The notes beneath the pieces were generated by a model. That model was not told where the DNA came from and did no database searches. It was given only the letters and a program-made list of their open reading frames with translations. This document shows, piece after piece, positions 5,633 through 22,224 of a DNA stretch of 37,587 bases. This DNA comes from Propionibacteriales bacterium (GTDB lineage: Bacteria; Actinomycetota; Actinomycetes; Propionibacteriales; Nocardioidaceae). A program made the translations under genes and the position numbers. Location: contig WHTB01000007.1 in assembly GCA_009379735.1 (NCBI GenBank), forward strand, positions 1 through 37,587, given 5' to 3'. Each line of letters opens with the position of its first letter. Position 1 is the first letter of the stretch.

Positions 5633-6619
5633 TCAGTGGGCGCGGGCCAGCGACAGGGCGAACCGGTCCCCGCTGTCGGTCCACCACGACTGCAGCGCGA
5701 ACCCGGCGGCAGCCAGCTCGGTTTCCACCACCTCGCGGCGGAACTTCGCCGACACCTCGGTGCCCAGCTCCTCACCCTTGGCGAACGTCGCCACCAGGTC
5801 GAGCTCGGGGATCCGTACCCGCATCTCCCGCATCGCCCGGAGCCGCATCTCGATCCACTCCTGCTCGGCGTTCCACACCGCCACATGGGTGAACGCGTCG
5901 ACGTCGAAGTCGGCGCCGAGCTCACGGTTGAGCACCCGCAGGACGTTGCGGTTGAACTCGGCGGTCACGCCGGCGGCGTCGTCGTACGCCGGGACGAGCA
6001 CGTCGGGTGACTTGACCAGGTCGGTGCCGAGCAGCAGGTACTCGCCGGGCTCGAGTACGTCGCGGATAGAGCGGTAGAACACGGCCCGTTCGGCGGGGAT
6101 CAGGTTGCCGATCGTGCCGCCGAGGAACGCGACCAGCCGTGGCGCCTCGCCCGGCAGGTCGTCGAGGTGGGCGGTGAAGTCGCCGACCACGCCGTGCACC
6201 GTCAACTCGGGATAGTCCTCGGCGATGGCCGAGATCGCGTCGCGCAGGGCGGACTCCGACACATCGAGGGGTACGAACTGCCGCAGCGTGCCGTGATCGT
6301 GCAGCGCGTCGAGCAGCAGCCGAGTCTTCTCCGACGACCCCGACCCCAGCTCGACCAGCGTGTGCGCGGAGGTCTGCGCCGCGATGTCGGCGGACCGGGT
6401 GTGCAAGATCTCGCGCTCGGCCCGAGTCGGGTAGTACTCCGGCAGCCGGGTGATCTCCTCGAACAGCTCGCTGCCACGGGTGTCGTAGAACCACTTCGGG
6501 GCCAGCCACTTCGGGCTTGCCCGCAGCCCCGACGCGGCGTCGGCACGCAGCGCGCGGGCGGCGTGGTCGGGTGTCAGTAGTACGTCGACCGTCACGTCGC
6601 GACGAGCGGTTTCCGGCAT
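5633..6619 (-). CDS. egtD: Histidine N-alpha-methyltransferase, ergothioneine biosynthesis
   Basis: SAM-dependent enzyme that methylates the alpha-amino group of histidine three times to give hercynine, the first committed step of ergothioneine synthesis. It has 328 residues, close to the usual ~320. Family landmarks are visible: PKWFYDTRGSELFEEIT near residues 37-53, LPEYYPTRAE just after, and the SAM-site segment VELGSGSSEKTRLLL near 88-102. The ATG at 6619 lies four bases after the egtC stop, and GGAGGG inside the end of egtC serves as ribosome site. It is last in the egtABCD operon. A long palindrome follows it. Confidence 0.96.
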   Translation of the reverse strand: MPETARRDVTVDVLLTPDHAARALRADAASGLRASPKWLAPKWFYDTRGSELFEEITRLPEYYPTRAEREILHTRSADIAAQTSAHTLVELGSGSSEKTRLLLDALHDHGTLRQFVPLDVSESALRDAISAIAEDYPELTVHGVVGDFTAHLDDLPGEAPRLVAFLGGTIGNLIPAERAVFYRSIRDVLEPGEYLLLGTDLVKSPDVLVPAYDDAAGVTAEFNRNVLRVLNRELGADFDVDAFTHVAVWNAEQEWIEMRLRAMREMRVRIPELDLVATFAKGEELGTEVSAKFRREVVETELAAAGFALQSWWTDSGDRFALSLARAH

Positions 6620-7393: not shown

Positions 7394-8722
7394 TCAGCGC
7401 AGCTCGTCGGCACGCGGCGTGCGCGCGCAGCGGAAACCGGCGAAGATCTGCCCCCGGATCGGGGAGTCCCAGTTGCGGAACGTGCCGCGGCACGCGACCG
7501 CATCCGTCCCGAACGAGCCGCCCCGCAGCACCTTGTAGCCGGGGCCGAAGAAGGCCAGGGAGTACTCGTCGTACGGGAACGCCGTGAACCCGGGGTAGCC
7601 GCCGAAGTCGCTGCTGGTCCACTCCCACACGTCGCCGATCAGCTGCTGCACCCCGAGCGGTGAGGCACCGGCCGGGTACGCACCGACGGGCGCCGGGTGC
7701 AGGTGTCGCTGGTCGAGGTTGGCGTGCTCGGGGCCGGGGTCTTCGTCGCCCCACGGGTAGCGGCGCGAACGCCCGGTCGCCGGGTCGAAGCGGGCCGCCT
7801 TCTCCCACTCGACCTCGGTCGGCAGCCGCTTGCCCGCCCAGGCGGCGTACGCCTCGGCCTCGTAGAAGCACACGTGGACGACCGGCTCGTCGGCAGGCAC
7901 CGGCTCACGGACGCCGAAGCGGGTGCGGACCCAGCCTGAGCCGTCGCGCTCGAAGAACCGCGGCGCGCCGAGGTCGGCCTGCTGGCGGTGCGCCCACCCG
8001 GCTGCGGACCACCACCGCTGGTCGTCGTAGCCGCCCGCGTCGATGAAGGCGAGGAAGTCGCCGTTGGTCACCGGCGCGGTGTCGATGAAGAACGGGTCGG
8101 TGTGTGCGGTGTGCGCCGGCCGCTCGTTGTCGAGGGCCCACGGCTCGGTCGAGGTGCCCATGGTGAACGCCCCGCCGGGTACGAGCGCCTCCGCCGCGGC
8201 CAGCCGTCGACCTGCCGGGGGATCGGGCGCGTGCAGCACCGGCCCGCCGGAGCGCAGCTGGTGGGTGGCCAGCATGGTCTCGTCGTGCTGCTGCTCGTGC
8301 TGCGCGATCATGCCGAACGCGAAGGCGCTCTCCACCAGCTGCCGGCCCTCGAGCGGGGTGTGGTCGAGCACGTCGAGCACCTTGTCGCGCACCTCGCGGA
8401 CGTAGCCGCGCGCCTCGGCGGGGTTGAGCAGCGGCAGCGCCGGACGGTCGGCCCGGGCATGCTGGAACGCGTCGTACAGCTTGTCGATGTCCTGCCGTAC
8501 GGGCTCGCGGTGCCCGACGTCGCGGACGAGCCACAGCTCCTCCTGGTTGCCGACGTGGGCGAGGTCCCATACCAGCGGCGACATCAGCCGGGAGTGCTGC
8601 CGGACCAGGTCGTCGTCATCGACGGCGTCGGTCAACAGCTCACTGCGCCGGCGGGCCCGCACCAGCTGCTCGGCCACCCGGCTGCGCAGCTGCTCCTGGG
8701 TGAGGTCGGGTAGCGAGGTCAT
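7394..8722 (-). CDS. egtB: Hercynine oxygenase (sulfoxide synthase)
   Basis: Non-haem iron enzyme joining gamma-glutamylcysteine to hercynine with oxygen. It has 442 residues. The N-terminal DinB-like domain carries the iron ligands: His56 in WDLAHVGNQEELWL, and the pair His142 and His146 in QHEQQHDETML. The C-terminal half is a formylglycine-generating-enzyme-like domain, with PGGAFTMGTS (~190), LPTEVEWEKAARFD and GDVWEWTSSDFGGYPGF. The ATG overlaps the egtA stop by four bases. Use of gamma-glutamylcysteine rather than cysteine is inferred from the presence of egtA and egtC. Confidence 0.97.
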   Translation of the reverse strand: MTSLPDLTQEQLRSRVAEQLVRARRRSELLTDAVDDDDLVRQHSRLMSPLVWDLAHVGNQEELWLVRDVGHREPVRQDIDKLYDAFQHARADRPALPLLNPAEARGYVREVRDKVLDVLDHTPLEGRQLVESAFAFGMIAQHEQQHDETMLATHQLRSGGPVLHAPDPPAGRRLAAAEALVPGGAFTMGTSTEPWALDNERPAHTAHTDPFFIDTAPVTNGDFLAFIDAGGYDDQRWWSAAGWAHRQQADLGAPRFFERDGSGWVRTRFGVREPVPADEPVVHVCFYEAEAYAAWAGKRLPTEVEWEKAARFDPATGRSRRYPWGDEDPGPEHANLDQRHLHPAPVGAYPAGASPLGVQQLIGDVWEWTSSDFGGYPGFTAFPYDEYSLAFFGPGYKVLRGGSFGTDAVACRGTFRNWDSPIRGQIFAGFRCARTPRADELR

Positions 8723-9918
8723 GCGGAGTGCCTCCTCATCGAGTGGCCGTCGATCCGGCGCTGCAGGTGGTCGGTGGTGTGCGCGACCTGGGCCGCGTCG
8801 ACATCGAGCCGCGTCATTGCCGCGCAGCCCAACTCGACGAGCCCGCTGGCGGCCTCGAGCACCGGCTCGTCGTCGAGCCCCTGCTGGGCCGCCGGGAGCC
8901 AGCGGTCCGCTGCCCGCTCGGCGGCGTCGGTCGCGGCGTCGACGGTCGCCGGGTCGGCCATCAGCGCGGTCAGCAGCAGCACCGGGTCACGCCAGCGATC
9001 GGCCGGCTGGCTGTCGAGATAGCGCACCTCGAGGTAGCCCCGCGGGCGCACCGGCGGGAACAGCGTCGAGAGGTGGTAGTCGAGGTCGCCGAAGGTCGGC
9101 CGGAGTCCGAGGGCGCCGTCGGCCCACGCGCCGAACGTCAGGCCGGGTGGCGCGTGCCACGAGGCACCGTCGCGCCGCAGGCAGATCACCGGAGCCTCCA
9201 TCGCAAGGGCAGCCCATCGATGCGCCGGGTCGCCGTCGAGGGCCGGGGGACCGGTCTGCGGCGGGCAGGTGTCGAGCGTGGACCTGACCCGGGACGAGGC
9301 CCAGCCGGTGTCGCGGCCGGCGAGCCGGCGGGAGTTGGCGAACAGGGCGACGAGGGCCGGGCCGACGGTGTGCAGCGCGGTCCAGCGCGCCGCGGCGGCC
9401 TCCGCCTCGCCGGCATCGAGACAGACCTGGAGGGCGGCGGTGCTGCACATCATCTGCGAGCCGGCCGGGCCGAGGGCGTCGAAGGCATCCTGCATCGCGG
9501 CGTAGCGGGCGACCTCGAGGATGCGGCGGGGTGGCCGGTGGGCGTCGCTGCCGTGCTCGCCGAGCACCAGGTCGTCGGGAGCCAGGAGCGCGGTCAGCGC
9601 CGCGATGTCGGCATCGACGGAGGTCAGCAGGGTGGCCACGGACTGCTGGGGCGGCGGCGAGATCTCTACCTGGCCGCCGGGCTCCACGGTGAGTGCGGAG
9701 CCGCTAGGGAGCGGGAGATGCGGGCTGTCAGGGGTCAGGGTCGCCGGGGCGTACGCGCCGAGCGCCCGCTGCAGGTCGGCCGGCTCGATCGGGCGGGTGG
9801 GGTCGTCGGCGTGGTGCACGGTCCACTCGAGCTCGACGCCGACGTGGCGTGGTGGACCGTGCTTGAAACAGATCATCGCGACGTAGCGCTCCGCGTCGTC
9901 ACGCGAGCAGATCGGCAT
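8719..9918 (-). CDS. egtA: Glutamate-cysteine ligase of the ergothioneine pathway
   Basis: ATP-dependent ligase making gamma-glutamylcysteine, the sulfur donor for EgtB. It has 399 residues and belongs to the GCS2-like family: HVGVELEWTVHH near residue 30, LPSGSALTVEPGGQVEISPPP near 80-100 and a late RPRGYLEVRYLDSQPADRW. The ATG at 9918 (MPICSRDD...) was chosen because GGGAG lies six bases upstream. The frame stays open upstream to 10008, but that extension has low-complexity composition and no ribosome site. It is the first gene of the operon. The ~190-base gap to the divergent GNAT gene must hold the promoter, but I could not single one out. Confidence 0.94.
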   Translation of the reverse strand: MPICSRDDAERYVAMICFKHGPPRHVGVELEWTVHHADDPTRPIEPADLQRALGAYAPATLTPDSPHLPLPSGSALTVEPGGQVEISPPPQQSVATLLTSVDADIAALTALLAPDDLVLGEHGSDAHRPPRRILEVARYAAMQDAFDALGPAGSQMMCSTAALQVCLDAGEAEAAAARWTALHTVGPALVALFANSRRLAGRDTGWASSRVRSTLDTCPPQTGPPALDGDPAHRWAALAMEAPVICLRRDGASWHAPPGLTFGAWADGALGLRPTFGDLDYHLSTLFPPVRPRGYLEVRYLDSQPADRWRDPVLLLTALMADPATVDAATDAAERAADRWLPAAQQGLDDEPVLEAASGLVELGCAAMTRLDVDAAQVAHTTDHLQRRIDGHSMRRHSA

Positions 9919-10111
9919 CGAGGACTCCCTGTCCTCGTCGCCGGCCGCAGCACCACTCAGAGCCATCGCCATGTCGCAGCCATCATTACCCAGGCCTCCG
10001 ACAATCACACGGCCAGCGCCGAAAGTTCAGTCTCGGTTCACTCTGTGCGGCCGGCTCGGGTGTCGCTCGGCCAGGTCGCGTGGAAGGCTGGGCTGCGGTT
10101 GGGGAGGCGCC

Positions 10112-10690: not shown

Positions 10691-11620
10691 TCAGCTCGAC
10701 GTGCTGCCGCGCAACAGCGACGGCGACCCCGCGATCTCGACCAGCAGCTGGCCCATCCGGCTCTCGGCCTCGGTCGGACGGCGGCCGGCGAGCCGGGCGA
10801 GCAGCACTCGCCGAGACGGCACCTGGGCGCCGAGCGACAGCACGCGAACATCGTCGCGGAGGCCGGCCAGGGCCAGTCTCGGCACCATCGCGACGCCGAG
10901 CCCGACGGCCACCATGGCCTGTGCCTCCTGGTAGTCGTTGGCCTCGAAGGCGATGGTCGGCCGGAATCCGGCGGTGTGCGCGCTCCGCAGCAACAGCTCG
11001 CCGACCGGATGCCCGTCGGCCCGGATGATCCACGGCTCTTCGGCCAGCTCGGGGATGCGCACGGCGCGCCGGTCCGCCAGCGGGTGCGTCGCCGAGACGA
11101 TCAGCGCGGTGGGGTCGTCGAGCAGATGGGTGATCTTCAGGCCCGGGTTGGCGATTCGCGACCAGCTGTAGTCCCAGAGCAGGGCCAACTCGACCGCGCG
11201 GCTCTCCAGCATGTTCAGCAGGCCCCGCAGCCGCGAGCTGCTGACCGACAGATGCACGCCGGGGTGCTCCTGCCGGAACCGCGTCACCGCCAGCGGCAGC
11301 AAGGACGAGCCGGCCGTCGGGAACGTACCGAGCCGCAGCGACCCGGCCCTCAGCCCGGCGATGTCGTCGAGGCGCGCCCGCAACGAGTGCAGCTGCCGGT
11401 CGATCAGCTCGGCGTGCTCGGCCACCGCCCGACCCGCGTCGGTCAAGGTGACGCCCCGGCTGTGCCGCTCGAGCACCGGCTGGCCGACCTCGGCCTCCAG
11501 CTTGCGCACCTGCTGCGACACCGCCGAGACCGTGTACCCGAGGGCTTCAGCGGCTCCGGACATGCTGCCGTGCTGCGCCACCGCCGCCAGCACGCGCAGC
11601 CGGTGGACGTCGAGGGTCAT
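10691..11620 (-). CDS. LysR-type transcriptional regulator, likely controlling the divergent carboxylate operon
   Basis: LTTR of 309 residues. The N-terminal winged helix reads LRVLAAVAQHGSMSGAAEALGYTVSAVSQQVRKLEAEVG (about 8-46), followed by the linker helix and a substrate-binding-like domain starting at GSLRLGTFPTAGSSLLP. It is transcribed away from the PrpF/TTT operon across a 138-base intergenic region, the standard LTTR arrangement with control of the divergent neighbour. A 17-bp dyad of LTTR-box size lies 20 bases before its start. The ATG at 11620 has AAGGCGAAG upstream. The inducer is presumably the transported carboxylate or an intermediate (inference). Confidence 0.92.
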   Translation of the reverse strand: MTLDVHRLRVLAAVAQHGSMSGAAEALGYTVSAVSQQVRKLEAEVGQPVLERHSRGVTLTDAGRAVAEHAELIDRQLHSLRARLDDIAGLRAGSLRLGTFPTAGSSLLPLAVTRFRQEHPGVHLSVSSSRLRGLLNMLESRAVELALLWDYSWSRIANPGLKITHLLDDPTALIVSATHPLADRRAVRIPELAEEPWIIRADGHPVGELLLRSAHTAGFRPTIAFEANDYQEAQAMVAVGLGVAMVPRLALAGLRDDVRVLSLGAQVPSRRVLLARLAGRRPTEAESRMGQLLVEIAGSPSLLRGSTSS

Positions 11621-11639: not shown

Positions 11640-11656
11640 CTTAAGTATGCCTTGAG
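11640..11656. promoter_or_regulatory. Candidate LysR box (CTTAAG-N5-CTTGAG)
   Basis: CTTAAGTATGCCTTGAG is an imperfect dyad (CTYAAG-N5-CTTRAG, 10 of 12 arm positions symmetric) that contains the T-N11-A pattern of LTTR sites. It sits 20 bases upstream of the lysR-type start and about 100 bases upstream of the prpF-type start, suitable for autorepression and activation. Motif only. Confidence 0.5.
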
Positions 11657-11716: not shown

Positions 11717-11728
11717 ATTGCATGCAAC
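11717..11728 (+). promoter_or_regulatory. Candidate GntR operator (ATTGCATGCAAC), copy 1
   Basis: The perfect 10-bp palindrome TTGCATGCAA lies 31 bases upstream of the PrpF-type GTG start. The full 12-mer recurs exactly, in reverse complement, at 19631-19642 upstream of the second flavoprotein gene, beside a GntR/FCD regulator gene. Short palindromes of this kind are the usual FCD-type GntR sites. Regulation by the local GntR protein is inferred. Confidence 0.6.
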
Positions 11729-11758
11729 AGGTCGTACGCGAATCAGGAGGAACGGGAA

Positions 11759-12982
11759 GTGCGCATCCCAGCGGTGATCATGCGGGGCGGGACCAGCAAG
11801 GGTGTGTTCTTCCATGAGCGCGACCTGCCCCCCGCCGGCGCCGCCCGGGACCGGTTCATCCTGGCCGCGTACGGCAGCCCCGACCCCTACCGTCGGCAGG
11901 TCGACGGGCTCGGCGGCGCGACGTCCACCACCAGCAAGGTGGCCGTGATCGGCGACGGCGCCGCGCACGGCGTCCACGTCACGTACGACTTCGGCCAGGT
12001 CGGCATCGACCACCCGCTGGTCGACCGGCGGGGCAACTGCGGCAACATCTCGTCGGCGGTCGGCCCGTTCGCCGTCGACGAGGGGCTGGTGGAGGTGACC
12101 GAGCCGGTCACCGAGGTGCGATTCCTCAACCTCAACACCGGCAAGGTGATCGTCGCCCACGTGCCGGTGCACGACGGCCGCTTCGACCCGGTCGGTGACT
12201 TCGAGCTCCCCGGCGTGCCGGGGACGGGCTCGTCCATCCAGCTCGACTACCTCGATCCCTCCGGCGCCGTCACCGGCCGCCTGCTGCCGACCGGCAACGT
12301 GCGCGACGTGCTCGACGTCCCGGGTGTCGGCCGGCTCGAGGTCTCGCTCGTCGACGCCGCCAACCCGCTGGTGTTCGTACGCTGGGAGGACCTGGGCCTG
12401 ACCGGCCTCGAGCAGCCCGACGAGATCGACGCGGACGCCGGCCTGCTGGCGCGGATCGAGAAGGTACGGGCGCACGCGGGCGTACTCGCCGGCATCGCCG
12501 AGACGCCGGAGCAGGCGACCGCCGAGGTGCCGTCCGTACCCAAGCTCTCCTTCGTCGGCGCACCCCGCGACTACCAACTGAGCAACGGCGCGACGATGAC
12601 GGCCGACCAGACGACCTTGCGCGCCGCGATGATGTCGATGGGCCGGCTGCACCGTTCCTACCCCCTGACCGGAGCGATCGCGACGTCGGTCGCGGCGGCG
12701 GTCACCGGCACCCTCGTGCACGACGTCGCGACCGGTGCGAACGGGCAGACCCGGATCGGCCACCCCGCCGGTGTGCTGCCGATGGTGGCCGAGGCGCATC
12801 AGCACGACGGCGGTTGGACCGTCGAGCAGGTGTCCGGCTTCCGCACCTCCCGTCGACTCATGGAGGGGCACGTGCTGGTGCCAGACCAGATGCTTTCCGA
12901 GCGGCAGCCGAACGACGACCCACACGAGACGACGCGCGGGCCACAGGGGTCCGGCGACGACGAGGAGGCAGGCACGGCATGA
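11759..12982 (+). CDS. PrpF/DUF453-family isomerase (methylaconitate or oxalomesaconate type)
   Basis: Member of the PrpF family of diaminopimelate-epimerase-like isomerases, which shift a double bond or interconvert cis and trans forms of unsaturated di- and tricarboxylates; known members include 2-methylaconitate isomerase and 4-oxalomesaconate tautomerase. It has 407 residues. MRGGTSKGVFF at the N-terminus is diagnostic. The two expected catalytic residues are present: Lys60 in GGATSTTSKVAVI and Cys94 in RRGNCGNISSAVG. The C-terminal ~25 residues are acidic and look disordered. The GTG at 11759 has AGGAGG eight bases upstream. First gene of the TTT operon, overlapping the next by four bases. 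The substrate is likely an aconitate-like acid released by the neighbouring dehydrogenases (inference). Confidence 0.9.
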   Translation: MRIPAVIMRGGTSKGVFFHERDLPPAGAARDRFILAAYGSPDPYRRQVDGLGGATSTTSKVAVIGDGAAHGVHVTYDFGQVGIDHPLVDRRGNCGNISSAVGPFAVDEGLVEVTEPVTEVRFLNLNTGKVIVAHVPVHDGRFDPVGDFELPGVPGTGSSIQLDYLDPSGAVTGRLLPTGNVRDVLDVPGVGRLEVSLVDAANPLVFVRWEDLGLTGLEQPDEIDADAGLLARIEKVRAHAGVLAGIAETPEQATAEVPSVPKLSFVGAPRDYQLSNGATMTADQTTLRAAMMSMGRLHRSYPLTGAIATSVAAAVTGTLVHDVATGANGQTRIGHPAGVLPMVAEAHQHDGGWTVEQVSGFRTSRRLMEGHVLVPDQMLSERQPNDDPHETTRGPQGSGDDEEAGTA

Positions 12983-14106
12983 GATCTCTATTCACGCACC
13001 GAGTACGTGTGGCGCTGGTGGCCTCGGTCACGGCTGTCGGCCTGGCGGCCTGTTCGAACCCGCAGGGCGTCGGTGGTGACGACGGCAAGGCGAAGGAGGA
13101 CGCCAAGGTCCCGCCGCGCGTCGAGCTGGTGATCCCGTTCGCCGAGGGCGGCGGCACCGACACCTGGGCCCGCTTCCTCGCGCCGTACCTTGAGAAGTAT
13201 GTCGAGGGCAGCCCGACCTTCTCCCCGAAGAACGTGCTGGGTGGCGAGAGCATCACCGGCTCCAACCAGTTCGTGACGTCGGGCGGCACCGACGGCGCCC
13301 AGGTGCTGGTGACGTCGGGCACAACGTACTTCCAGGCCCTGCTCGGCCGGCCTGAGGTCGAGTTCGACTTCGCCAAGATGAAGCCGCTGATGCTCAACGG
13401 CACCGGCGGTGTCATCTACGCGTCGAAGTCCTCCGGCATCAAGACGGTCGAGGATCTCCAGGATCCACCGAAGCCGCTCGTGTATGGCGGGATCAGCGCC
13501 ACTGGCCTCGACCTGAGTCTGCTGCAGGCGTTCGACGTGCTCGGTGTCGACATCGACGCCACCTTCGGCTTCGAGGGGCGCGGGCCGGCCCGGCTGGCCC
13601 TGGAGCGCGGCGAGATCAACATCGACTACCAGACCACGTCGGCCTACCTGACCCAGGTGGAGCCGATGGTGGAGGCCGGCACCGCGGTGCCGCTGATGTC
13701 GTTCGGGGTGATCGAGGACGGCGAGATCGTACGCGACCCGAACGTGCCCGACCTGCCGACCGTCGAGGAGGTCCACGAGCAGCTGAACGGGTCGCCGCCG
13801 GAGGGTGAGGCGTACGACGCGTACCGCGCCTTCCTGGTGCCGGGATTCGTGTACCAGAAGGGCCTGTGGGCCAACGAGGGCACACCCGACTCGGTCGTGC
13901 AGGCGTACCGCGACGCGGTCGCCGCGATCAGCGACGACCCGGAGTTCAAGAAGTCCAGCGCGGAGGTGCTGGGCGGCTACCCGCTCTACTCGGGTGAGAA
14001 GGCGCAGGACGACCTGATCGAGGCGTTCGAGATCAAGCCCGAAGTACGCCAGTACACGCTCGACCTGCTGAAGACCAAGTACGAAACCACCATCGAAGGG
14101 TCCTGA
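12979..14106 (+). CDS. Tripartite tricarboxylate transporter substrate-binding lipoprotein (TctC/Bug family)
   Basis: Extracytoplasmic binding protein of a TTT carboxylate transporter, 375 residues, slightly longer than the usual ~320-330. The N-terminus has basic residues, a hydrophobic stretch VALVASVTAV and lipobox GLAAC with Cys25, so it is a lipoprotein held on the outer face of the membrane. The mature part begins with the family pattern VELVIPFAEGGGTDTWARFLAPYLEKYV. Later YGGISATGLDLSLLQAFDVLGVD and FEGRGPARLALERGEINIDY form the ligand-cleft loops. ATG 12979 overlaps the preceding stop. A palindromic repeat separates it from the permease gene. The ligand cannot be told from sequence, though a di- or tricarboxylate is expected. 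Confidence 0.92.
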   Translation: MRSLFTHRVRVALVASVTAVGLAACSNPQGVGGDDGKAKEDAKVPPRVELVIPFAEGGGTDTWARFLAPYLEKYVEGSPTFSPKNVLGGESITGSNQFVTSGGTDGAQVLVTSGTTYFQALLGRPEVEFDFAKMKPLMLNGTGGVIYASKSSGIKTVEDLQDPPKPLVYGGISATGLDLSLLQAFDVLGVDIDATFGFEGRGPARLALERGEINIDYQTTSAYLTQVEPMVEAGTAVPLMSFGVIEDGEIVRDPNVPDLPTVEEVHEQLNGSPPEGEAYDAYRAFLVPGFVYQKGLWANEGTPDSVVQAYRDAVAAISDDPEFKKSSAEVLGGYPLYSGEKAQDDLIEAFEIKPEVRQYTLDLLKTKYETTIEGS

Positions 14107-14112
14107 CCACGA

Positions 14113-14190
14113 GCCGCGGTTACGTGGCAGGTGGTCGCTCTCCTGGGGTTATACGCCTAGGGAAGTGACCACAAGCCACGGTTACGTGGC
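14113..14190. repeat. 78-bp palindromic repeat, copy A (REP/BIME-like)
   Basis: Two small hairpins, GCCGCGGTTACGTGGC (14113-14128) and GCCACGGTTACGTGGC (14175-14190), flank a central stem made from GGTCGCTCTCC and GGGAAGTGACC. A second copy of identical length lies at 28150-28227, and the two agree at 63 of 78 positions. Several differences fall in loops or keep wobble pairs. This copy sits between the binding-protein gene and the permease gene of one operon, where it could shield the upstream message or lower permease expression, as REP sequences do between E. coli malE and malF. Confidence 0.75.
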
Positions 14191-14244
14191 AAACGGCGCC
14201 GGCGCGAAACGACGTCGGGTACGAGGAACGCGGGAGGTTGGGCC

Positions 14245-16236
14245 ATGCTGGACGCTGCGACCAGCGCGCTGGCCGCGTTCCTCGACCCGGCGATGCTGCT
14301 CTTCTTGATGGCCGGCATCCTCGCCGGCCTGGTGGTCGGGATCATCCCGGGTCTCGGGGGCACCGGCGCGGTGGCGATCCTGCTGCCCTTCGTCTTCGTG
14401 CTCGAGCCGGAGCAGGCGCTCGCGCTGATCATCGGCGCGGTCGCCGTCGTCCACACGTCCGACACCATCTCCTCGGTGCTGATCGGCATCCCCGGTTCGG
14501 CGTCCGCGACGGTGCTGATGCTCGACGGCCACGAGATGGCCAAGCAGGGGCAGGCCGCCCGCGCCCTCGCGATCGCGTTCCTGTCGTCGATGGCCGGTGG
14601 CCTGCTCGGTGCCATCGGGCTGACACTGTCGATCCCGATCGCCCGGCCCCTCGTCCTCCTGTTCGGCTCTCCCGAGCTGTTCATGCTGACCGTGCTCGGC
14701 ATCTCGCTGACGGCCCTGCTCTCCAGCGGCAACATGCTGAAGGGCCTGCTGGCCGGCGCGTTCGGCCTGCTGCTCGGCCAGGTCGGCGCGGCGCCGGCGG
14801 CCGCCGAGTACCGCTACACGTTCGGCTCGCTGTACCTCACCGAAGGCCTCGACCTGGTGGCGGTCGCACTGGGCATCTTCGGCATCGCCGAGGTGGTCTC
14901 CCTGGTCGCCCGCAAGACGAGCGTCGCGAGTGGGTCGGGCATCGGGACCGGCTGGGGAGACGGCGTCCGCGACTTCTTCACCCACTGGCGGCACGTCCTG
15001 CGTGGCGCGCTGGTCGGCATCTGGGCCGGCGTGCTGCCCGGTCTCGGCGCGACCGCCGGCACCTGGATGGCGTACGGGCAGGCCCGGGCCACCGCCCGCG
15101 GCAAGGACCGAAAGAAGTTCGGCAAGGGCGACCCCCGCGGCATCGTCGCGCCCGAGAGCGCCAACAACTCGGTCGAGGCCGGCGACCTGATCCCCACCCT
15201 GCTGTTCGGCATCCCGGGAGGCGCACCGGCCGCCCTGCTGCTCGGCGCGTTGCTGGTCTTCGGCATCGAGCCGGGCCCCCGCATCATCACCGAGGACCTC
15301 GACATCGTCTACACGATCGTGTGGTCGTTCGCGATCGCCAGCGTCGTCGGCGCCGGTCTCTGCTTCCTGCTCAGCGTGCCGCTGGCCAAGCTCAGCTACG
15401 TCCGCTTCCCCGTCCTGGCGGCCGGCCTGATCGTCATCATGTTCACCGCCGGCTACCAGGAGTCCCAGCAGATCTCGGTGCTGCAGGTCATGCTGCTGCT
15501 CGGCGCCGTCGGCTGGCTGATGAAGATCAGCCACATCCCCCGGGCGCCGTTTCTGATCGGCTTTGTGCTGAGCATCCCGTTGGAGCGTTACTACTACCTC
15601 ACCGCGAACCTGTACACGTTCGGCGAGTGGGCCGTACGTCCTGGCGTCCTGGTGATGGCCGGGGTGCTCGTGCTGCCGGTCGCGCTGAACCTCGTGAAGC
15701 GGCTCCGGGCGCGGACCGATGCTGATGTCCCCGAGCCGAGCGACGACGACCAGGACCTCCTCGAGGCCGAGCCACCGCGCAGCTGGCCGCTCGCGCTGAC
15801 CGCCGTCTTCCTGGTGCTGTTCGTCGCGGCCTTCGTGGTGGCGCAGGGCTACAGCACCAACGCCCGGCTGGTGCCGTCGCTGGTGACGGCCTGCGGCGCC
15901 CTGCTCGCCTCGGCGGTGCTCGTGCTCGGCGTCCGCGACCTGCGGCGGGGTGAACGGTGGCAGACCGACGACGAGCAAAAGGCCTGGCGGGTCGAGCTCA
16001 GGTGGGTGCTGCTCGCCTTCGCGTGGTTGGCCGGGTTCGTCGTCGGCGTGTTCATCGTCGGCGCCCTGATCGCAGCGGCGCTTTACGTACCACTGTTCCT
16101 CTGGCGGGTGGCGCAGCTGCGCTGGCCCGCGATCGCGATCTACACGGTGGCTGTACTCGCCGTACTCCTGCTGCTGCAGGAGTTCGCGGGCATCGTGCTG
16201 CCGCTTGGCTACCTCACCCCGAGAGGACTGATGTGA
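14245..16236 (+). CDS. Fused TctA-TctB permease of a tripartite tricarboxylate transporter
   Basis: Membrane subunit of the TTT transporter, 663 residues. Residues 1 to ~495 are TctA, with about twelve hydrophobic segments and the duplicated family motif: GLVVGIIPGLGGTGAVAILLPF near 31-52 and GIWAGVLPGLGATAGTWMAYG near 255-276. LIGIPGSASATVLMLDGHEMAKQG and LLFGIPGGAPAALLLG are also typical. After an acidic linker (~495-512) come four more hydrophobic segments, starting LALTAVFLVLFVAAFVVAQGY, which match the size and layout of TctB, the small subunit normally made by its own gene. No separate tctB was found nearby. The ATG at 14245 has GGGAGG upstream, and the stop overlaps the next start. Confidence 0.9.
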   Translation: MLDAATSALAAFLDPAMLLFLMAGILAGLVVGIIPGLGGTGAVAILLPFVFVLEPEQALALIIGAVAVVHTSDTISSVLIGIPGSASATVLMLDGHEMAKQGQAARALAIAFLSSMAGGLLGAIGLTLSIPIARPLVLLFGSPELFMLTVLGISLTALLSSGNMLKGLLAGAFGLLLGQVGAAPAAAEYRYTFGSLYLTEGLDLVAVALGIFGIAEVVSLVARKTSVASGSGIGTGWGDGVRDFFTHWRHVLRGALVGIWAGVLPGLGATAGTWMAYGQARATARGKDRKKFGKGDPRGIVAPESANNSVEAGDLIPTLLFGIPGGAPAALLLGALLVFGIEPGPRIITEDLDIVYTIVWSFAIASVVGAGLCFLLSVPLAKLSYVRFPVLAAGLIVIMFTAGYQESQQISVLQVMLLLGAVGWLMKISHIPRAPFLIGFVLSIPLERYYYLTANLYTFGEWAVRPGVLVMAGVLVLPVALNLVKRLRARTDADVPEPSDDDQDLLEAEPPRSWPLALTAVFLVLFVAAFVVAQGYSTNARLVPSLVTACGALLASAVLVLGVRDLRRGERWQTDDEQKAWRVELRWVLLAFAWLAGFVVGVFIVGALIAAALYVPLFLWRVAQLRWPAIAIYTVAVLAVLLLLQEFAGIVLPLGYLTPRGLM

Positions 16237-17762
16237 CCGGGACTGCCGTTTCCACCGAACCCGACCGGACCGACGGCTGGGACGTCGACGTGGTCGTCGT
16301 GGGCGCCGGCAACGCCGCGCTGGTCGCCGCGCTGACCGCGCACGAGTCGGGCGCCCGGGTGCTGGTGCTCGAGGCCGCGCCGCACGCCGAGCGTGGCGGC
16401 AACAGCCGCTTCAGCGGCGGCATCTTCCGCTGTGTCCATGATGGCCTGGAGAGCCTGCTGCCGCTGGTCACCGACGAGTCGCGCCAGTGGGCCGAGCACG
16501 TGCAGGTGGACCCGTACCCGGCGACGCGCTACCGCGACGAGCTCGACCGGGCGACCGACGGCCGCAGCGAGCCCGGCCTGGCCGACCGCCTGGTCGACGA
16601 CTCCTTCGCCACAGTGCGGTGGATGGCCGAGCACGGCGTGCGCTGGGAGCTCACCGTCGGCAAGCTGATCGACCCGGAGCGGATCCCGGCGGGGGAGCGG
16701 TACTCGCTGCCGCCGGGTGGCGCGCTCAGGTCGGCGAACGAGGGCGTCGGCCTGGTCGAGGACCTGTTCCGCATCGTCGAGGCGGCCGACATCGAGGTCT
16801 GGTACGACGCCCCGGTCGTCGACCTGGTGATGAGCGGGTCGACCTGCCAGGGCGTCACGGTGCGGCGACCTGACGGCGACATCGAGGTGCGCGGGGTCGT
16901 GGTGCTGGCGGCCGGTGGCTTCGAGGCCAACCCCGAGCTGCGGCAGCGCTGGCTCGGTCCCGGGTGGGACCTGGTCAAGGTACGAGGCACCCGCTTCAAC
17001 ATGGGTACGGTCCTGGTCGCGGCGCTGGACGCCGGTGCGCAGCCGACCGGGCACTGGGGCGGCTGCCACGCGGTGCCGTTGGACGCCGCGGCGCCGGCGG
17101 TCGGCGAGCTCCGCCTGACCGACCGGATGAGCAGGTACAGCTACCCGTACGCGCTGCTGCTCAACCGGGCCGGCGAGCGCTTCGTCGACGAGGGCGAGGA
17201 CGAGGTCTGGCTGACGTACGCCAAGACCGGGACCGCCGTCCGGGCCCAGGACAAGGCGTGGGCGTTCCAGCTGTTCGACGCCAAGACCACTCATCTGCTG
17301 GAGCCGCGGTACTCCACCGGCACCCCGCTGACCGCCGACGACCTGCCGACCCTCGCCGGGCTGCTCGGCGTTGACCCGCAGGCGCTGGTGGACACGGTCG
17401 AGACGTTCAACGCGGCCTGCCCCGACGGCGACTTCGACCCGTTCCGCACGGACGGGCTGCGGGCGGCGCCGCCGGGCCAGCCGGCGAAGTCGAACTGGGC
17501 GCAGCGGATCGACACCCCGCCGTACGTGGCGTACCCCGTGACCTGTGGGATCACGTTCACCTACGGCGGCCTGAAGATCGACGACTCCGGTCGGGTGCTC
17601 GACGTGGCCGGTCGGGTGATGCCGGGGCTGCACGCCACCGGCGAGATCACCGGTGGGTTCTTCTTCCACAACTATCCCGCGGGCGCCGGCCTGACCCGCG
17701 GCGCCGTCTTCGGCCGGTTGGCCGGGCAGGGTGCGGCGGCCGAGTCGCTGGCCCGGAGGTGA
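16233..17762 (+). CDS. FAD-dependent TcuA-type (tricarballylate dehydrogenase-like) flavoprotein 1
   Basis: Flavoprotein of the fumarate reductase/succinate dehydrogenase fold, 509 residues, closest in appearance to TcuA, which oxidises tricarballylate to cis-aconitate. The FAD-binding GxGxxA motif is VVVVGAGNAALVAAL at about 20-34, then RGGNSRFSGG near 52-61. Later landmarks are GVVVLAAGGFEAN, RFVDEGEDEVWLTYAKTG, VTCGITFTYGGLKID and the C-terminal GLHATGEITGGFFFHNYPAGAGLTRGAVFG. GTG 16233 overlaps the permease stop, so uptake and oxidation are translationally coupled. TcuB, the usual electron-transfer partner, is absent from the window. A paralog follows at 19674. The substrate is probably a saturated di- or tricarboxylate (inference). 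Confidence 0.9.
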   Translation: MTGTAVSTEPDRTDGWDVDVVVVGAGNAALVAALTAHESGARVLVLEAAPHAERGGNSRFSGGIFRCVHDGLESLLPLVTDESRQWAEHVQVDPYPATRYRDELDRATDGRSEPGLADRLVDDSFATVRWMAEHGVRWELTVGKLIDPERIPAGERYSLPPGGALRSANEGVGLVEDLFRIVEAADIEVWYDAPVVDLVMSGSTCQGVTVRRPDGDIEVRGVVVLAAGGFEANPELRQRWLGPGWDLVKVRGTRFNMGTVLVAALDAGAQPTGHWGGCHAVPLDAAAPAVGELRLTDRMSRYSYPYALLLNRAGERFVDEGEDEVWLTYAKTGTAVRAQDKAWAFQLFDAKTTHLLEPRYSTGTPLTADDLPTLAGLLGVDPQALVDTVETFNAACPDGDFDPFRTDGLRAAPPGQPAKSNWAQRIDTPPYVAYPVTCGITFTYGGLKIDDSGRVLDVAGRVMPGLHATGEITGGFFFHNYPAGAGLTRGAVFGRLAGQGAAAESLARR

Positions 17763-18295
17763 ACCGCCGCGCGGTCTCCGACGCCGCCTTGCTGCTGGCC
17801 GGTGGGACGGTCGGCGCGGCTGCCCTGACGCTCGCCAAGGTGCCCGCCGGCACCCTGGTCGGTGCGGTCGTCGGCAGCGCCGTCGCCAACCGGCTGAGCG
17901 CCCGGAGGTCGGAGCTGCCGGCGGAGGTGGCGCAGCGGTCGCTCCCGACCCCGGTACGCGTGGTCGGCATGGTGCTGCTCGGCTGCGTGGCCGGCGTCCG
18001 GCTGGACCGGGGCACGCTGCACAACCTGGCCGAGGTGGCGCTGCCGCTCGGGATCGGGGTGCTGCTGCTGCTGGCCGTGAACGTGCTGGTCGCCGCCGTG
18101 CTGGTGCGCCGGTACGGCATCGACCCGCTGACCGCGGTGCTGGCCTGCGCACCGGGCGGGGTCAGCGAGATCGCGGTGACCGCGTCGCAGCTGGGCGCCC
18201 GGACCGGCGTCGTGCTGTCGGTGCACATGGTGCGGGTGCTTGCGGTGGTGCTGGTCGTGCTCCCGCTGCTGGTCGCGGTTCTGGGGCGTCCGTGA
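17759..18295 (+). CDS. Half-size AbrB-duplication-domain membrane protein, first half
   Basis: Integral membrane protein of 178 residues with one copy of the AbrB duplication domain; despite the database name this family is not the Bacillus AbrB DNA-binding protein. Hydrophobic segments run through DAALLLAGGTVGAAALTLA, VVGMVLLGCVAGV, LPLGIGVLLLLAVNVLVAAVLV and VVLSVHMVRVLAVVLVVLPLLVAVL. The conserved core is ACAPGGVSEIAVTASQLGA. Typical family members, such as the E. coli protein of ~350 residues, hold two such domains in one chain. Here the second domain is the next gene, overlapping by four bases. GTG 17759 also overlaps the flavoprotein stop. The function of the family is uncertain, but a transport-related role in the operon fits its place. 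Confidence 0.85.
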   Translation: MNRRAVSDAALLLAGGTVGAAALTLAKVPAGTLVGAVVGSAVANRLSARRSELPAEVAQRSLPTPVRVVGMVLLGCVAGVRLDRGTLHNLAEVALPLGIGVLLLLAVNVLVAAVLVRRYGIDPLTAVLACAPGGVSEIAVTASQLGARTGVVLSVHMVRVLAVVLVVLPLLVAVLGRP

Positions 18296-18813
18296 GCCCG
18301 GGGGAGATGGCGCTGCTGCTGGCCAGCGGTGCGGCCGGGGCAGCGGCCGGTCGGCTGCTGCGGCTGCCGATGTGGCCGATGACCGGCGCGCTGGCCGGGG
18401 CCGCGCTGATGCACCTGATGGTCGGTGGGCACTTCGTGGCCCCGGGCTGGTGGAGTGTCCTGGCGCAGGTGCTGGTCGGCACCGCGGTCGGTGCCACGGT
18501 CGCTCCGAACCTGCTGCGCGAGTTCAGGTCTGTGCTGGTGCCGGGCGCCGTCGCCGTACTGGCGATCGTCGGTATCGGCGTCGGCTGCGGGCTCGCGATC
18601 GGTGCCCTGCACCTGCTGGACCCCACCGTCGCGGTGTTCGGCATGGTGCCGGGCGGGGTCGGCGAGATGGTCGCCGCGGCGACCGCACTAGACGTGGACA
18701 GCGCCCTCGTCGCGGCGATGCACACCGTCCGGCTGCTCGCGGTGCTGTGGCTGCTGCCGGTCCTGGTGCGGTGGGCGCGACGCTGGCCGGCCGGAGGCGA
18801 CGACGATGTCTGA
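18292..18813 (+). CDS. Half-size AbrB-duplication-domain membrane protein, second half
   Basis: Membrane protein of 173 residues with the partner AbrB duplication domain. Its core GMVPGGVGEMVAAATALDVDSALVAAMHTVRLLAVLW aligns directly with the corresponding part of the preceding gene. The two proteins are therefore equivalents of the N- and C-terminal halves of a normal family member and probably assemble. The GTG at 18292 overlaps the previous stop as GTGA, a clean coupled junction rather than an obvious frameshift scar. Last plus-strand gene before the convergent GntR gene, whose stop lies 19 bases on. Confidence 0.85.
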   Translation: MSPGEMALLLASGAAGAAAGRLLRLPMWPMTGALAGAALMHLMVGGHFVAPGWWSVLAQVLVGTAVGATVAPNLLREFRSVLVPGAVAVLAIVGIGVGCGLAIGALHLLDPTVAVFGMVPGGVGEMVAAATALDVDSALVAAMHTVRLLAVLWLLPVLVRWARRWPAGGDDDV

Positions 18814-18832
18814 CCGCCTCCGTGGCTTCGGC

Positions 18833-19570
18833 TCAGGTGCCGAGCACCATCGCCAGCCTGATCTCCCGGGCCCGGTGCATGTGCTCCTTGGCGGCGCGCT
18901 CGGCGGCCTCGCCGTCGCGTGCCTCGACCGCCCGGACGATCGCGTCGTGCTCGTTCGCGACCTCCTCGGGCCGGCCGTGATGGGCGAATGTCGTCACCGG
19001 CAGTCGGCGGACGGCATGCTCCACCTGGCCGAGGAAGCGAGACAGGTACGGGTTGGCGGCGGCCTCACGCAGCGCCCGGTGGAACGTCAGGTTCTGCCGC
19101 GCCAGTGCTGCTGTGTCGCCGCCGGCTCCGGAGGTCGCCATCTCGGCCTGGATGCGGTCGAGCTCCTGCACCAGCCCCGGTGGGCAGCGCACCGCGGCGA
19201 GCCGAGCGGCCAGTCCCTCGAGGTTCTCGCGGACGACGTACAGCGCGAGCACGTCCTCCAGCGACAGCGGCGCGACCACGGTGCCGTGGTGTGCGGTCTT
19301 CACCGCCAGCCCCTCGTCCGCGAGCCGGCGCAGGGCCTCGCGTACGGGCGTCCGGCTCACCTCGAACGCGCCGGCCAGCAGGTCCTCGCGCAGCCAGGTG
19401 GACGGCGCCAGCACGCCGTCCAGGATCGCCTCGCGCATGGCGTCGGTGACGGCGTCGGTCGTCCGCCCACGGGCCGTACCCGGCGGCAGGTAGCTCCGCA
19501 GTGCCTCGGCCGGGTCGGACGACGGGCCGGTCGCGGCGGCGTCGTCGGCCTGCGATCCATGGGTCGTCAC
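18833..19570 (-). CDS. GntR-family (FCD/FadR subgroup) transcriptional regulator
   Basis: A 245-residue regulator. The N-terminal winged helix spans about residues 36-98, with LREDLLAGAFEVSRTPVREALRRLADEGL containing the recognition helix (SRTPVREAL). The C-terminal all-helical FCD domain has the metal/ligand-site pattern of this subgroup: RENLEGLAARLAA, FHRALREAAANPYL and NEHDAIVRAVEARDGEAAERAAKEHM. FCD proteins usually sense organic acids and repress their catabolic genes. The gene lies between the two catabolic units and is divergent from the second flavoprotein. GTG 19570 has no clear ribosome site and may be leaderless. Its likely operator is TTGCATGCAA (see 11717 and 19631). Confidence 0.92.
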   Translation of the reverse strand: MTTHGSQADDAAATGPSSDPAEALRSYLPPGTARGRTTDAVTDAMREAILDGVLAPSTWLREDLLAGAFEVSRTPVREALRRLADEGLAVKTAHHGTVVAPLSLEDVLALYVVRENLEGLAARLAAVRCPPGLVQELDRIQAEMATSGAGGDTAALARQNLTFHRALREAAANPYLSRFLGQVEHAVRRLPVTTFAHHGRPEEVANEHDAIVRAVEARDGEAAERAAKEHMHRAREIRLAMVLGT

Positions 19571-19594
19571 GAGGGTGAGCGTAGTGCAGATTTC

Positions 19595-19642
19595 TTGGAC
19601 ACGAAACAGTTTGGGTACAATTCCTAGTGAGTTGCATGCAAT
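19595..19642 (+). promoter_or_regulatory. Promoter with overlapping GntR operator, copy 2
   Basis: TACAAT at 19616-19621 is a good -10 box, with TTGGAC at 19595-19600 or TCTTGG two bases earlier as -35 (spacing 15 or 17). GTTGCATGCAAT at 19631-19642, the exact reverse complement of the site at 11717-11728, lies nine bases after the -10, at the expected transcription start. A repressor bound there would block the flavoprotein-2 promoter. Promoter call from motifs only. Confidence 0.55.
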
Positions 19643-19673: not shown

Positions 19674-21164
19674 GTGACACGGACGGTCGTGGTGGTGGGA
19701 GCCGGGAATGCGGCGTTGTGTGCGGCGCTCGCGGCGCGGGACCAGGGCGCCGAGGTCACCGTCCTCGAGCGGGCGCCGAAGCACCTCCGCGGCGGCAACA
19801 CGGCCTTCACCGCGGGTGCGATGCGGGTGGCGTACGACGGGGTGGACGACCTGCGGCGGCTGATGCCCGACCTCAGCGACGAGGAGGTGGCCGTCACCGA
19901 CTTCGGCAGCTACCCGACCGAGGCGTTCCTCGACGACCTGGCCCGAGTGACGGAGTACCGCACCGACCCCGAGCTGGCGGGCATCCTCGTCGAGCAGAGC
20001 CTGCCGACCGTGCTGTGGATGCGCGACAAGGGGGTGCGGTTCGTGCCGATCTACGGCCGCCAGGCGTTCAAGGTCGAGGGCAGGTTCACATTCTGGGGCG
20101 GCCTGACGGTCGAGGTCTCCGGCGGTGGCCCCGGTCTGGTCGAGTCGCTGACGGCCGCCGCCGAGCGCGAGGGCGTCACCGTCGAGTACGGCGCGCATGT
20201 GCTGTCGCTGCTGCACGATGACGACGGCGTGCACGGCGTACTCGTGCGGCAGGACGGACGTAGCCGCGAGGTGCGCGCCGACGCGGTGGTGCTGGCCAGC
20301 GGCGGCTTCCAGTCCAACACCGAGATGCGCACCCGCTACCTGGGGCCGTCCTGGGACCTCGCCAAGGTGCGCGGCACGATGTACAACACCGGCGACGGCA
20401 TCACGATGGCGCTGGCGATCGGCGCCAGCCCGACCGGCAACTGGTCCGGCTGCCACGCCGTCGGCTGGGAGCTGAACGCCCCTGAGTTCGGCGACCTGGC
20501 GGTGGGCGACCTCTTCCAGAAGCACAGCTACCCGTGGGGGGTGATGGTCAACGCCGAGGGCCGGCGGTTCGTCGACGAGGGTGCGGACTTCCGCAACTAC
20601 ACCTACGCGAAGTACGGCCGCCGGATCCTCGAGCAGCCGGGTCACTTCGCGTGGCAGGTCTTCGACGCCAAGGTCACGCACCTGCTGCGCGACGAGTACC
20701 GGATCCGGCAGGTTACGAAGGTGACCGCCCCGACGCTGGAGCAGCTGGCGACCAAGCTGGACGGCGTGGACGCCGATGCCTTCCTGGGCGAGATGGCCGC
20801 GTACAACGAGGCCGTCGACACCGCGACCGCGTTCAACCCGAACGTCAAGGACGGTCGGGCGACCCACGGCCTCGACGTCGACAAGACCAACTGGGCGAAC
20901 CCGATCGACGAGGGCCCGTTCGAGGCGTACGCCGTCACCTGCGGCATCACGTTCACCTTCGGCGGCCTCCGGATCGACCCGAGCGCCAGGGTGCTGGACA
21001 CCGACCTGCAGCCGATTCCCGGGCTGTATGCGGCCGGGGAGCTCGTCGGCGGCATCTTCTACTTCAACTACCCGGGTGGCAGCGGGCTGACCAACGGGTC
21101 GGTGTTCGGGCGGATCGCCGGGACCGGGGCGGCGACGCCGGCGCGTAGGACTGCCGATGTCTGA
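19674..21164 (+). CDS. FAD-dependent TcuA-type flavoprotein 2
   Basis: Second TcuA-like flavoprotein, 496 residues, clearly homologous to the one at 16233 along its whole length but far from identical. Shared landmarks are VVVVGAGNAALCAAL (5-19), RGGNTAFTAG, VVLASGGFQSN, SYPWGVMVNAEGRRFVDEG, NYTYAKYG, AVTCGITFTFGGLRID and AGELVGGIFYFNYPGGSGLTNGSVFG. It is more compact at the N-terminus, starting directly with the Rossmann strand. GTG 19674 is preceded by GAGG. It is divergent from gntR and shares its stop region with the next gene (8-base overlap). Two paralogs under one regulator suggest two successive or stereochemically different oxidations (inference). Confidence 0.9.
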   Translation: MTRTVVVVGAGNAALCAALAARDQGAEVTVLERAPKHLRGGNTAFTAGAMRVAYDGVDDLRRLMPDLSDEEVAVTDFGSYPTEAFLDDLARVTEYRTDPELAGILVEQSLPTVLWMRDKGVRFVPIYGRQAFKVEGRFTFWGGLTVEVSGGGPGLVESLTAAAEREGVTVEYGAHVLSLLHDDDGVHGVLVRQDGRSREVRADAVVLASGGFQSNTEMRTRYLGPSWDLAKVRGTMYNTGDGITMALAIGASPTGNWSGCHAVGWELNAPEFGDLAVGDLFQKHSYPWGVMVNAEGRRFVDEGADFRNYTYAKYGRRILEQPGHFAWQVFDAKVTHLLRDEYRIRQVTKVTAPTLEQLATKLDGVDADAFLGEMAAYNEAVDTATAFNPNVKDGRATHGLDVDKTNWANPIDEGPFEAYAVTCGITFTFGGLRIDPSARVLDTDLQPIPGLYAAGELVGGIFYFNYPGGSGLTNGSVFGRIAGTGAATPARRTADV

Positions 21165-22224
21165 CGACGCTCTCGAGCTGGCCGTGATCCGCGGCGACGG
21201 CATCGGTCCCGAGCTGGTGGACAGCGCCCTCGAGGTGCTGGCGGCGGTCTGCGCCGCGGAGTCGCTGACGCTGCGCGTACTCGACGAGCCCGGGGGCGCG
21301 GCCCACTACCGCTCGACGGGGGAGCCGTTGCCGCCCGGGGCGCTGGAGCGGTTGCGGCGGGCCGACGGCATTCTGAAGGGCCCGGTCGGGCTCCCGGAGG
21401 TCCGGCACCCCGACGGCACGGAGGCCGGCCTGCTGGGCGGGGTGATGCGGATCGGGCTGGACACGTACGCCAACGTACGACCGATCCGGCTGCTGCCGGG
21501 CGTCACCGGCGCGACCCGCCACGAGCCCGGCCAGATCGGCTACGTCATCGTCCGGGAGAACACCGAGGGGCTGTACCTCTCCCGCGGGGCCGGCGTGGCC
21601 ACCCACCACGCCGCGTGCGACCAGCTGCTGGTCACGCGCGCCGGCACCGAGCGGGTGGTGCGGCACGCGTTCGAGCTGGCCGTTGGTCGGGCCGGCGCCC
21701 CGTCCGACGGCGTCAGCCGGGTGACGTGCGTCGACAAGAGCAACGTGCTGCGCAGCTTCGCGCTGTTCCGCGAGGTGTTCGACGAGGTGGCGGGCGAGTA
21801 CGCCGAGGTGGCGGCGGAGCACCTGTACGCCGACGCGGCGGCCTACGAGCTGGTCGCCCGGCCCGAACGGTTCGACGTGCTGGTGATGGAGAACTTCCTC
21901 GGCGACATCCTCAGCGATGTCGGCGCCGCGACGGTCGGCGGCCTCGGCATGTGCCCCTCTGGCAACATCGGTGCGTCGGCCGCGTACTTCGAGCCGATCC
22001 ACGGCAGCGCGCCGTCGATCGCCGGCCGCGACCTGGCCAACCCGGTGTCGCAGCTGTTGAGCGCCGGAATGCTGTTGAGGCACGCGCAGCAGCCGGCCGC
22101 CGCGGACCGGCTGGAGCGAGCCGTCGAGGCGGCGTTCGCCGACGGCGCGGTGCGGCTGCGGGGGGACGGAACTCCTGAGCTGGGCACGCGCGCGGTGACC
22201 CGAGCAGTGGTCGCGCGGGTGTGA
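21157..22224 (+). CDS. Isocitrate/isopropylmalate-dehydrogenase-family beta-decarboxylating dehydrogenase
   Basis: NAD(P)-dependent oxidative decarboxylase for (2R)-2-hydroxy acids carrying a 3-carboxylate, 355 residues. Family landmarks are AVIRGDGIGPE (9-19), VRENTEGLY with catalytic Tyr140, CVDKSNVLR with catalytic Lys194, metal ligands Asp226, Asp250 and Asp254 (MENFLGDILSD), and FEPIHGSAPSIAG near 278-290. Length and motifs fit the isopropylmalate/tartrate/homoisocitrate branch rather than the large isocitrate dehydrogenases. No leu genes surround it, so leucine synthesis is unlikely. Its ATG overlaps the flavoprotein stop. In context it probably oxidises and decarboxylates a hydroxy-tricarboxylate made by the island. 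How the hydroxy acid arises is not explained by any gene here. Confidence 0.88.
   Translation: MSDDALELAVIRGDGIGPELVDSALEVLAAVCAAESLTLRVLDEPGGAAHYRSTGEPLPPGALERLRRADGILKGPVGLPEVRHPDGTEAGLLGGVMRIGLDTYANVRPIRLLPGVTGATRHEPGQIGYVIVRENTEGLYLSRGAGVATHHAACDQLLVTRAGTERVVRHAFELAVGRAGAPSDGVSRVTCVDKSNVLRSFALFREVFDEVAGEYAEVAAEHLYADAAAYELVARPERFDVLVMENFLGDILSDVGAATVGGLGMCPSGNIGASAAYFEPIHGSAPSIAGRDLANPVSQLLSAGMLLRHAQQPAAADRLERAVEAAFADGAVRLRGDGTPELGTRAVTRAVVARV

Follow-up and report, generated by a model that had tools for sequence, protein, structure and literature searches.

A ten-base palindrome at both promoters of an actinobacterial tricarboxylate-type gene cluster as probable operator of a local FCD-GntR regulator

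How do the two catabolic transcription units of an uncharacterised actinobacterial gene cluster come under common control? The cluster lies on contig WHTB01000007.1 of a Propionibacteriales bacterium, and the window analysed here is the whole stretch of 37,587 nucleotides. Unit 1 (11759-18813) starts with a prpF-like gene, and unit 2 (19674-22224) starts with the second of two tcuA-like genes (tcuA2). A LysR gene is divergent from unit 1 and a gene encoding an FCD-type GntR regulator is divergent from unit 2 (Table 1). A first-pass annotation had noticed the same short word in front of both units and proposed a compact two-site regulon of the GntR protein. Based on our analysis, the palindromes are very probably the operators of a local, pathway-specific two-site regulon in which GntR would repress both units and LysR would activate the prpF unit. 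The regulon is supported by the two genomic sites, their conservation and the residues of GntR; from these we infer GntR binding, repression, effector and substrate.

The 12-mer ATTGCATGCAAC is found at 11717-11728 and its exact reverse complement GTTGCATGCAAT at 19631-19642, exactly where they had been annotated. Identity between both sites extends over 14 bp (AGATTGCATGCAAC, site 2 taken on the minus strand) and the 10-bp core TTGCATGCAA has no further copy in the window. As proposed, each site is just upstream of a catabolic unit, at its promoter. The sites had also been described as lying at both ends of the island in opposite orientation. They do head both units, but the second unit runs to 22224, so they are not the island's ends; the orientation is visible in the flanking bases alone and carries little information, the core being palindromic.

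Could such a word recur by chance? In a GC-rich genome an occasional copy is possible: TTGCATGCAA is found in 9 of 100 genomes of the same family, in a single copy each (around 0.1 per genome). One of these nine copies (G017, L053) sits in a related locus beside a tcuA gene 75% identical to that of the window. By pattern search, the host genome (4,518,532 bases in 483 contigs, 98% complete) contains two copies of TTGCATGCAA, both at promoters of this one cluster, and none of the reversed control pattern. Likewise, 100 dinucleotide shuffles contain no copy compared to two in the window. Frequent random occurrence in the genome, which the first-pass annotation had named as refuting its proposal, is not seen, with just these two sites in 4.5 Mb. 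Copies with one mismatch (10 places in the genome) were rejected as members of the regulon, with 12 matches in all compared to 15 for the reversed control. One of them, C132:6500, might still belong to it, being located around 0.7 kb ahead of another FCD gene.

Orthologues of GntR adjoin related catabolic genes in ten other actinobacteria, among them Pseudonocardia, Qaidamihabitans, Prauserella, Streptomyces, Segeticoccus, Georgenia and Actinomadura. These ten loci, with GntR 54-77% identical over the aligned part, form together with the window the eleven loci of our comparison; locus L021 was left out, its GntR being just 33% identical. Exact TTGCATGCAA occurs 13 times in the eleven loci compared to 0.028 expected under second-order Markov models. 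Given this excess and the position of both genomic copies, chance recurrence is refuted and we regard its probability as negligible.

The palindrome is found in the gntR-tcuA2 intergenic region of L011, L013 and L015 and, with one mismatch, of L012, L014 and L018; the same region of L016 has only the two-mismatch version TTGTATGCAG. L012 and L014, which are near relatives, carry one-mismatch TTGAATGCAA and two-mismatch TTGTATTCAA in place of the exact core. At prpF promoters, the palindrome is present in L015, L017 and L018 and has an altered form in L012, L014 and L019. Rearranged loci retain it as well. For example, in L017 it precedes a dehydrogenase gene that replaces tcuA2 beside gntR, and relocated dehydrogenase genes have their own exact palindrome in L013, L016, L019 and L020. 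Outside the loci, copies in the ten orthologue genomes are about as frequent as those of the reversed control. The conservation upstream of orthologous genes that had been suggested as a check is therefore seen in other genomes, even after rearrangement.

Orthologous loci clearly show an additional copy of the palindrome at a distance of one helical turn (z = 4.4 for the folded score at 11 bp), and extra boxes at 7-12 nt have been described (PMC4494728). This second copy is weak in the window and accordingly we do not claim it as a part there. In front of prpF and dehydrogenase genes, this extra copy may double as a -10 box.

As a separate observation, the GntR cluster of Pseudonocardia acaciae (L011, 10733-19710) has other neighbours than that of the window: genes for an NMT1-type binding protein, an ABC ATPase, a MaoC-like dehydratase, a luciferase-like enzyme, a citrate-synthase-like protein and an acyl-CoA-ligase-like protein.

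Next, we consider where the sites lie relative to the start of transcription. The TACAAT box that had been noted nine bases ahead of the second 12-mer is present, and five tcuA2 promoters (window, L012, L014, L015 and L018) have a -10-like hexamer (TACAAT, TACGAA or TACGAT) whose first base is exactly 16 bp ahead of the palindrome. This spacing would place the palindrome around 4-5 bp past the predicted transcription start. A consensus scanner found no full sigma-70 promoter, as is usual for GC-rich actinobacteria. In four orthologous loci from several genera (L011 at 7253, L013 at 7193, L016 at 7275 and L020 at 8838) the dehydrogenase frame can open at an in-frame ATG within the palindrome (TTGC-ATG-CAA); the L011 copy holding this candidate start codon is the two-mismatch TTGTATGCGA. 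A palindrome that lies at or after the predicted start, or that contains the start codon, fits repression. In these four loci, one 10-bp word could even serve as operator and, for a leaderless message, as start codon, the parent arrangement being a conserved two-input gate of LysR and GntR sites 88 bp apart, a tentative reading to which we give a little less than an even chance.

The GntR protein encoded between the units combines an N-terminal GntR winged helix-turn-helix (Pfam, 55 bits) with a C-terminal FCD domain (99 bits). In the structure model, the FCD domain (104 to 243) has six helices, with a mean predicted local distance difference test (pLDDT) score of 85, and is thus of the VanR type, not the seven-helix FadR type. 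Best matches in the fold search belong to the VanR group as well: Atu1419 (top), a Brucella GntR and PmiR/PrpR. Nine residues are invariant in 15 homologues. Four of them, E62, R73, T74 and R77, align with the DNA contacts Glu34, Arg45, Thr46 and Arg49 of Atu1419; N160, H164, H208 and H230 align with its zinc ligands Asn137, His141, His192 and His214, and R114 with the citrate contact Arg86. In crystals of Atu1419, these residues contact DNA, metal and citrate, and Arg45 reads G3 of the palindrome (PMC7797058). The same G3 is present in TTGCATGCAA. The operator consensus of the FCD family is TKGT/ACMA (PMC4494728); TTGCATGCAA fits the TKG-N4-CMA type and has C in place of the consensus T at position 4. 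The idea of a 10-bp palindrome of FCD-GntR size, with such a regulator encoded between the units, thus gains a VanR-group protein with predicted palindrome-reading residues.

Several observations nonetheless weigh against control of both sites by this GntR. The genome has around 18 other FCD genes, whose products could read a similar core. Locus L039, with a GntR 62% identical beside a tcuA 50% identical, lacks any copy with up to one mismatch, and the palindrome is absent, altered or elsewhere at the distant homologues L037, L038 and L040 (40-44% identical). Exact TTGCATGCAA is also found beside other FCD-GntR genes, at 1501 in L047 (33% identical) and at 1501 in L056 (36% identical), suggesting that several FCD clades read it. 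In addition, operator 1 is placed less clearly relative to its promoter than operator 2, and an FCD protein of Mycobacterium smegmatis acting on the same core is reported as an activator, which makes the sign of regulation uncertain.

The palindrome could accordingly be read by one of the many FCD paralogues, with the local GntR acting elsewhere, all the more as the TTG-N4-CAA frame is common to FCD operators. We consider this quite improbable. The palindrome follows the orthologues of the local GntR across genomes and through several rearrangements, whereas the paralogue loci of the host genome contain no exact copy and one of them (L077) contains another perfect palindrome, TTGGATCCAA. Binding by this GntR, not by another FCD protein of the genome, is therefore what we infer from the sequences. 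Nor is GntR likely to be an activator or a dual regulator at these sites instead of a plain repressor. The precedent for activation is the M. smegmatis protein, MSMEG_0535, footprinted on the same core (PMC4609117), but the predicted start coincides with, or just precedes, operator 2 and its orthologues, and the start codon of relocated dehydrogenases can fall in the palindrome. These positions would suit blocking of polymerase, not its recruitment. The close structural relatives PrpR and Atu1419 are, moreover, repressors.

Repression by GntR would be only one of two inputs on unit 1. We searched for LysR boxes as an imperfect dyad, TTAAG-N5-CTTAA with at most two mismatches. Each of the seven aligned prpF promoters has this dyad, 88 bp (87-89) ahead of its palindrome. 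Around 4,000 offsets were tried (-2000 to +2000), and at any offset outside 87-89 a LysR box is present in at most one locus; boxes of this type total nine in 162 kb. The strict pattern TTAAGNNNNNCTTNA has a single occurrence in the genome, at the 11641-11655 box. An eighth locus outside the alignment, L016, has no such box, and the box is absent from the tcuA2 promoters. In L017, where lysR is in tandem with gntR and no longer divergent from prpF, both the palindrome and the LysR box persist at prpF. With LysR encoded divergently and a dyad box ahead of its target, the prpF side has both features of a LysR-type divergent unit. The conserved box at a fixed distance from prpF and its absence at tcuA2 promoters support LysR input on unit 1 only, in agreement with the first-pass annotation, which had named LysR as a second input there.

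Operator 1 falls within the lysR-prpF intergenic region, and one may ask whether the palindrome itself belongs to LysR, with GntR uninvolved. This is very unlikely: in L011, L013 and L020, GntR and the palindrome are present but the 20 kb inspected contain no close relative of lysR, and the LysR-type dyad is a separate element at a fixed distance from the palindrome, which tcuA2 promoters have without it.

Parts of this arrangement have known counterparts. In the Tcu tricarballylate system of Salmonella, TcuABC is accompanied by the LysR-type regulator TcuR. The window likewise has two TcuA-family dehydrogenases and a LysR regulator, but within the cluster TctC and TctAB are found in place of TcuC, and GntR, PrpF-like and dehydrogenase genes are added. 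For TcuB, TIGR02484 has no match in the genome, a fragmented assembly. The cluster is thus not a complete Tcu system, TcuB not being found.

The best sequence match of GntR in PDB (structure 7xp0, 6.6e-23) is PrpR/PmiR (PA0797) of Pseudomonas aeruginosa, which represses the 2-methylcitrate cycle, a tricarboxylate pathway with prpF among its genes, and has the predicted operator ATTGTCGACAAT (PMC9765439). The two systems share a 12-bp palindrome in the same frame (ATTGTCGACAAT compared to ATTGCATGCAAC) and a PrpF-containing tricarboxylate pathway. However, the proteins are only around 31% identical, the centre of the palindrome differs, and the described prp operon is without Tct transporter, TcuA or LysR. 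Atu1419 of Agrobacterium fabrum has the 10-bp palindrome ATGTATACAT at its target promoters and citrate fits its pocket (PMC7797058). It shares with the window GntR the Asn-His-His-His metal site and identical DNA-contact residues, but it serves a hydroxycinnamate pathway with methylenetetrahydrofolate as effector, and its tetramer loops sites 190 bp apart. MSMEG_0535, a VanR-like FCD-GntR, protects from DNase the sequence CCTTGCATGCATTCTTGCATGCAAGG; its footprint holds TTGCATGCAA and a second near-copy one turn away (PMC4609117). The likeness to this other actinobacterial FCD-GntR is in the operator core, and its target, unlike here, is a permease, which it is reported to activate. In a literature search that did not extend to RegPrecise, this paper was relevant to the motif and nothing was found on the cluster. 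The kind of control is thus already known; the fixed geometry of two regulators and the possible start codon in the operator are more unusual.

Together, the data suggest the following mechanism. A GntR dimer would bind TTGCATGCAA at both operators and repress the units by occupying DNA that, as in the case of operator 2, lies at the start of transcription or just past it, until a tricarboxylate substrate or intermediate in the metal-containing FCD pocket releases it. The divergent LysR would act on TTAAG-N5-CTTAA to activate the prpF-tct-tcuA1 unit and probably regulates itself. Unit 1 would then require both GntR release and LysR activation, and unit 2 GntR release alone. The predicted outcome is uptake of a tricarballylate- or aconitate-like acid by TctC/TctAB and its oxidation by the two TcuA-like dehydrogenases, the PrpF-like isomerase and the isocitrate-dehydrogenase-like enzyme. 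By analogy with tetrameric Atu1419, long-range looping between the sites, which are 7.9 kb apart, might be speculated upon.

Table 1. Regulatory elements and genes of the cluster (positions in the window)
Feature	Position	Strand	Remarks
LysR-type regulator	10691..11620	-	Pfam HTH_1 and LysR_substrate; divergent from prpF
LysR-type box TTTAGCACCACTTAA	11630..11644		88 bp upstream of operator 1
Second, overlapping LysR-type box TTAAGTATGCCTTGA	11641..11655		11 bp farther on
Operator 1 (proposed), TTGCATGCAA	11718..11727		31 bp upstream of prpF-like start codon; conserved at promoters of prpF orthologues
PrpF-family isomerase, first gene of unit 1	11759..12982	+	Pfam PrpF, 428 bits; under NCBIfam prpF and OMA tautomerase cut-offs
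TctC-like substrate-binding lipoprotein	12979..14106	+	Weak Pfam TctC match, under cut-off; 54-73% identical in seven ortholog loci
TctA-TctB fusion permease	14245..16236	+	Pfam TctA 397 bits, TctB 30 bits
TcuA-like flavin adenine dinucleotide (FAD) dehydrogenase 1	16233..17762	+	NCBIfam NF006130, 489 bits (cut-off 369)
AbrB-family half permease 1	17759..18295	+	Pfam PF05145, TIGR03082
AbrB-family half permease 2	18292..18813	+	Pfam PF05145, TIGR03082
FCD-type GntR regulator (VanR group), proposed binder of both operators	18833..19570	-	Pfam GntR and FCD; alignment; model and fold search
Predicted -10 box TACAAT of unit 2	19616..19621	+	First base 16 bp ahead of palindrome
Operator 2 (proposed), TTGCATGCAA	19632..19641		Between gntR and second tcuA-like gene, just past predicted transcription start; conserved at orthologous gntR-tcuA intergenic regions
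TcuA-like FAD dehydrogenase 2, first gene of unit 2	19674..21164	+	NF006130, 594 bits (cut-off 369)
Isocitrate/isopropylmalate-dehydrogenase-family enzyme	21157..22224	+	Pfam Iso_dh, 290 bits; under every NCBIfam equivalog cut-off

The two TcuA-like dehydrogenases, one per unit, are 45% identical to each other. While both score above their curated cut-off, the PrpF-like and isocitrate-dehydrogenase-like proteins stay under all curated equivalog cut-offs. The AbrB-family permease is split into two half-length reading frames (17759-18813) that overlap by four bases. Next to the island, on the minus strand, are ergothioneine genes: egtD (5633-6619), egtB (7394-8722) and an egtA-like gene (8719-10008).

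Finally, these results would give a so far uncharacterised actinobacterial cluster for tricarboxylate catabolism a specific operator and regulon, and would link one GntR clade and one LysR clade to proposed binding motifs. The rearrangements, in which the operator moves with the regulated gene or is regained by it, offer a natural experiment on the upkeep of a local regulon, and the fixed spacing between the LysR and GntR sites makes this an easily testable two-input promoter.

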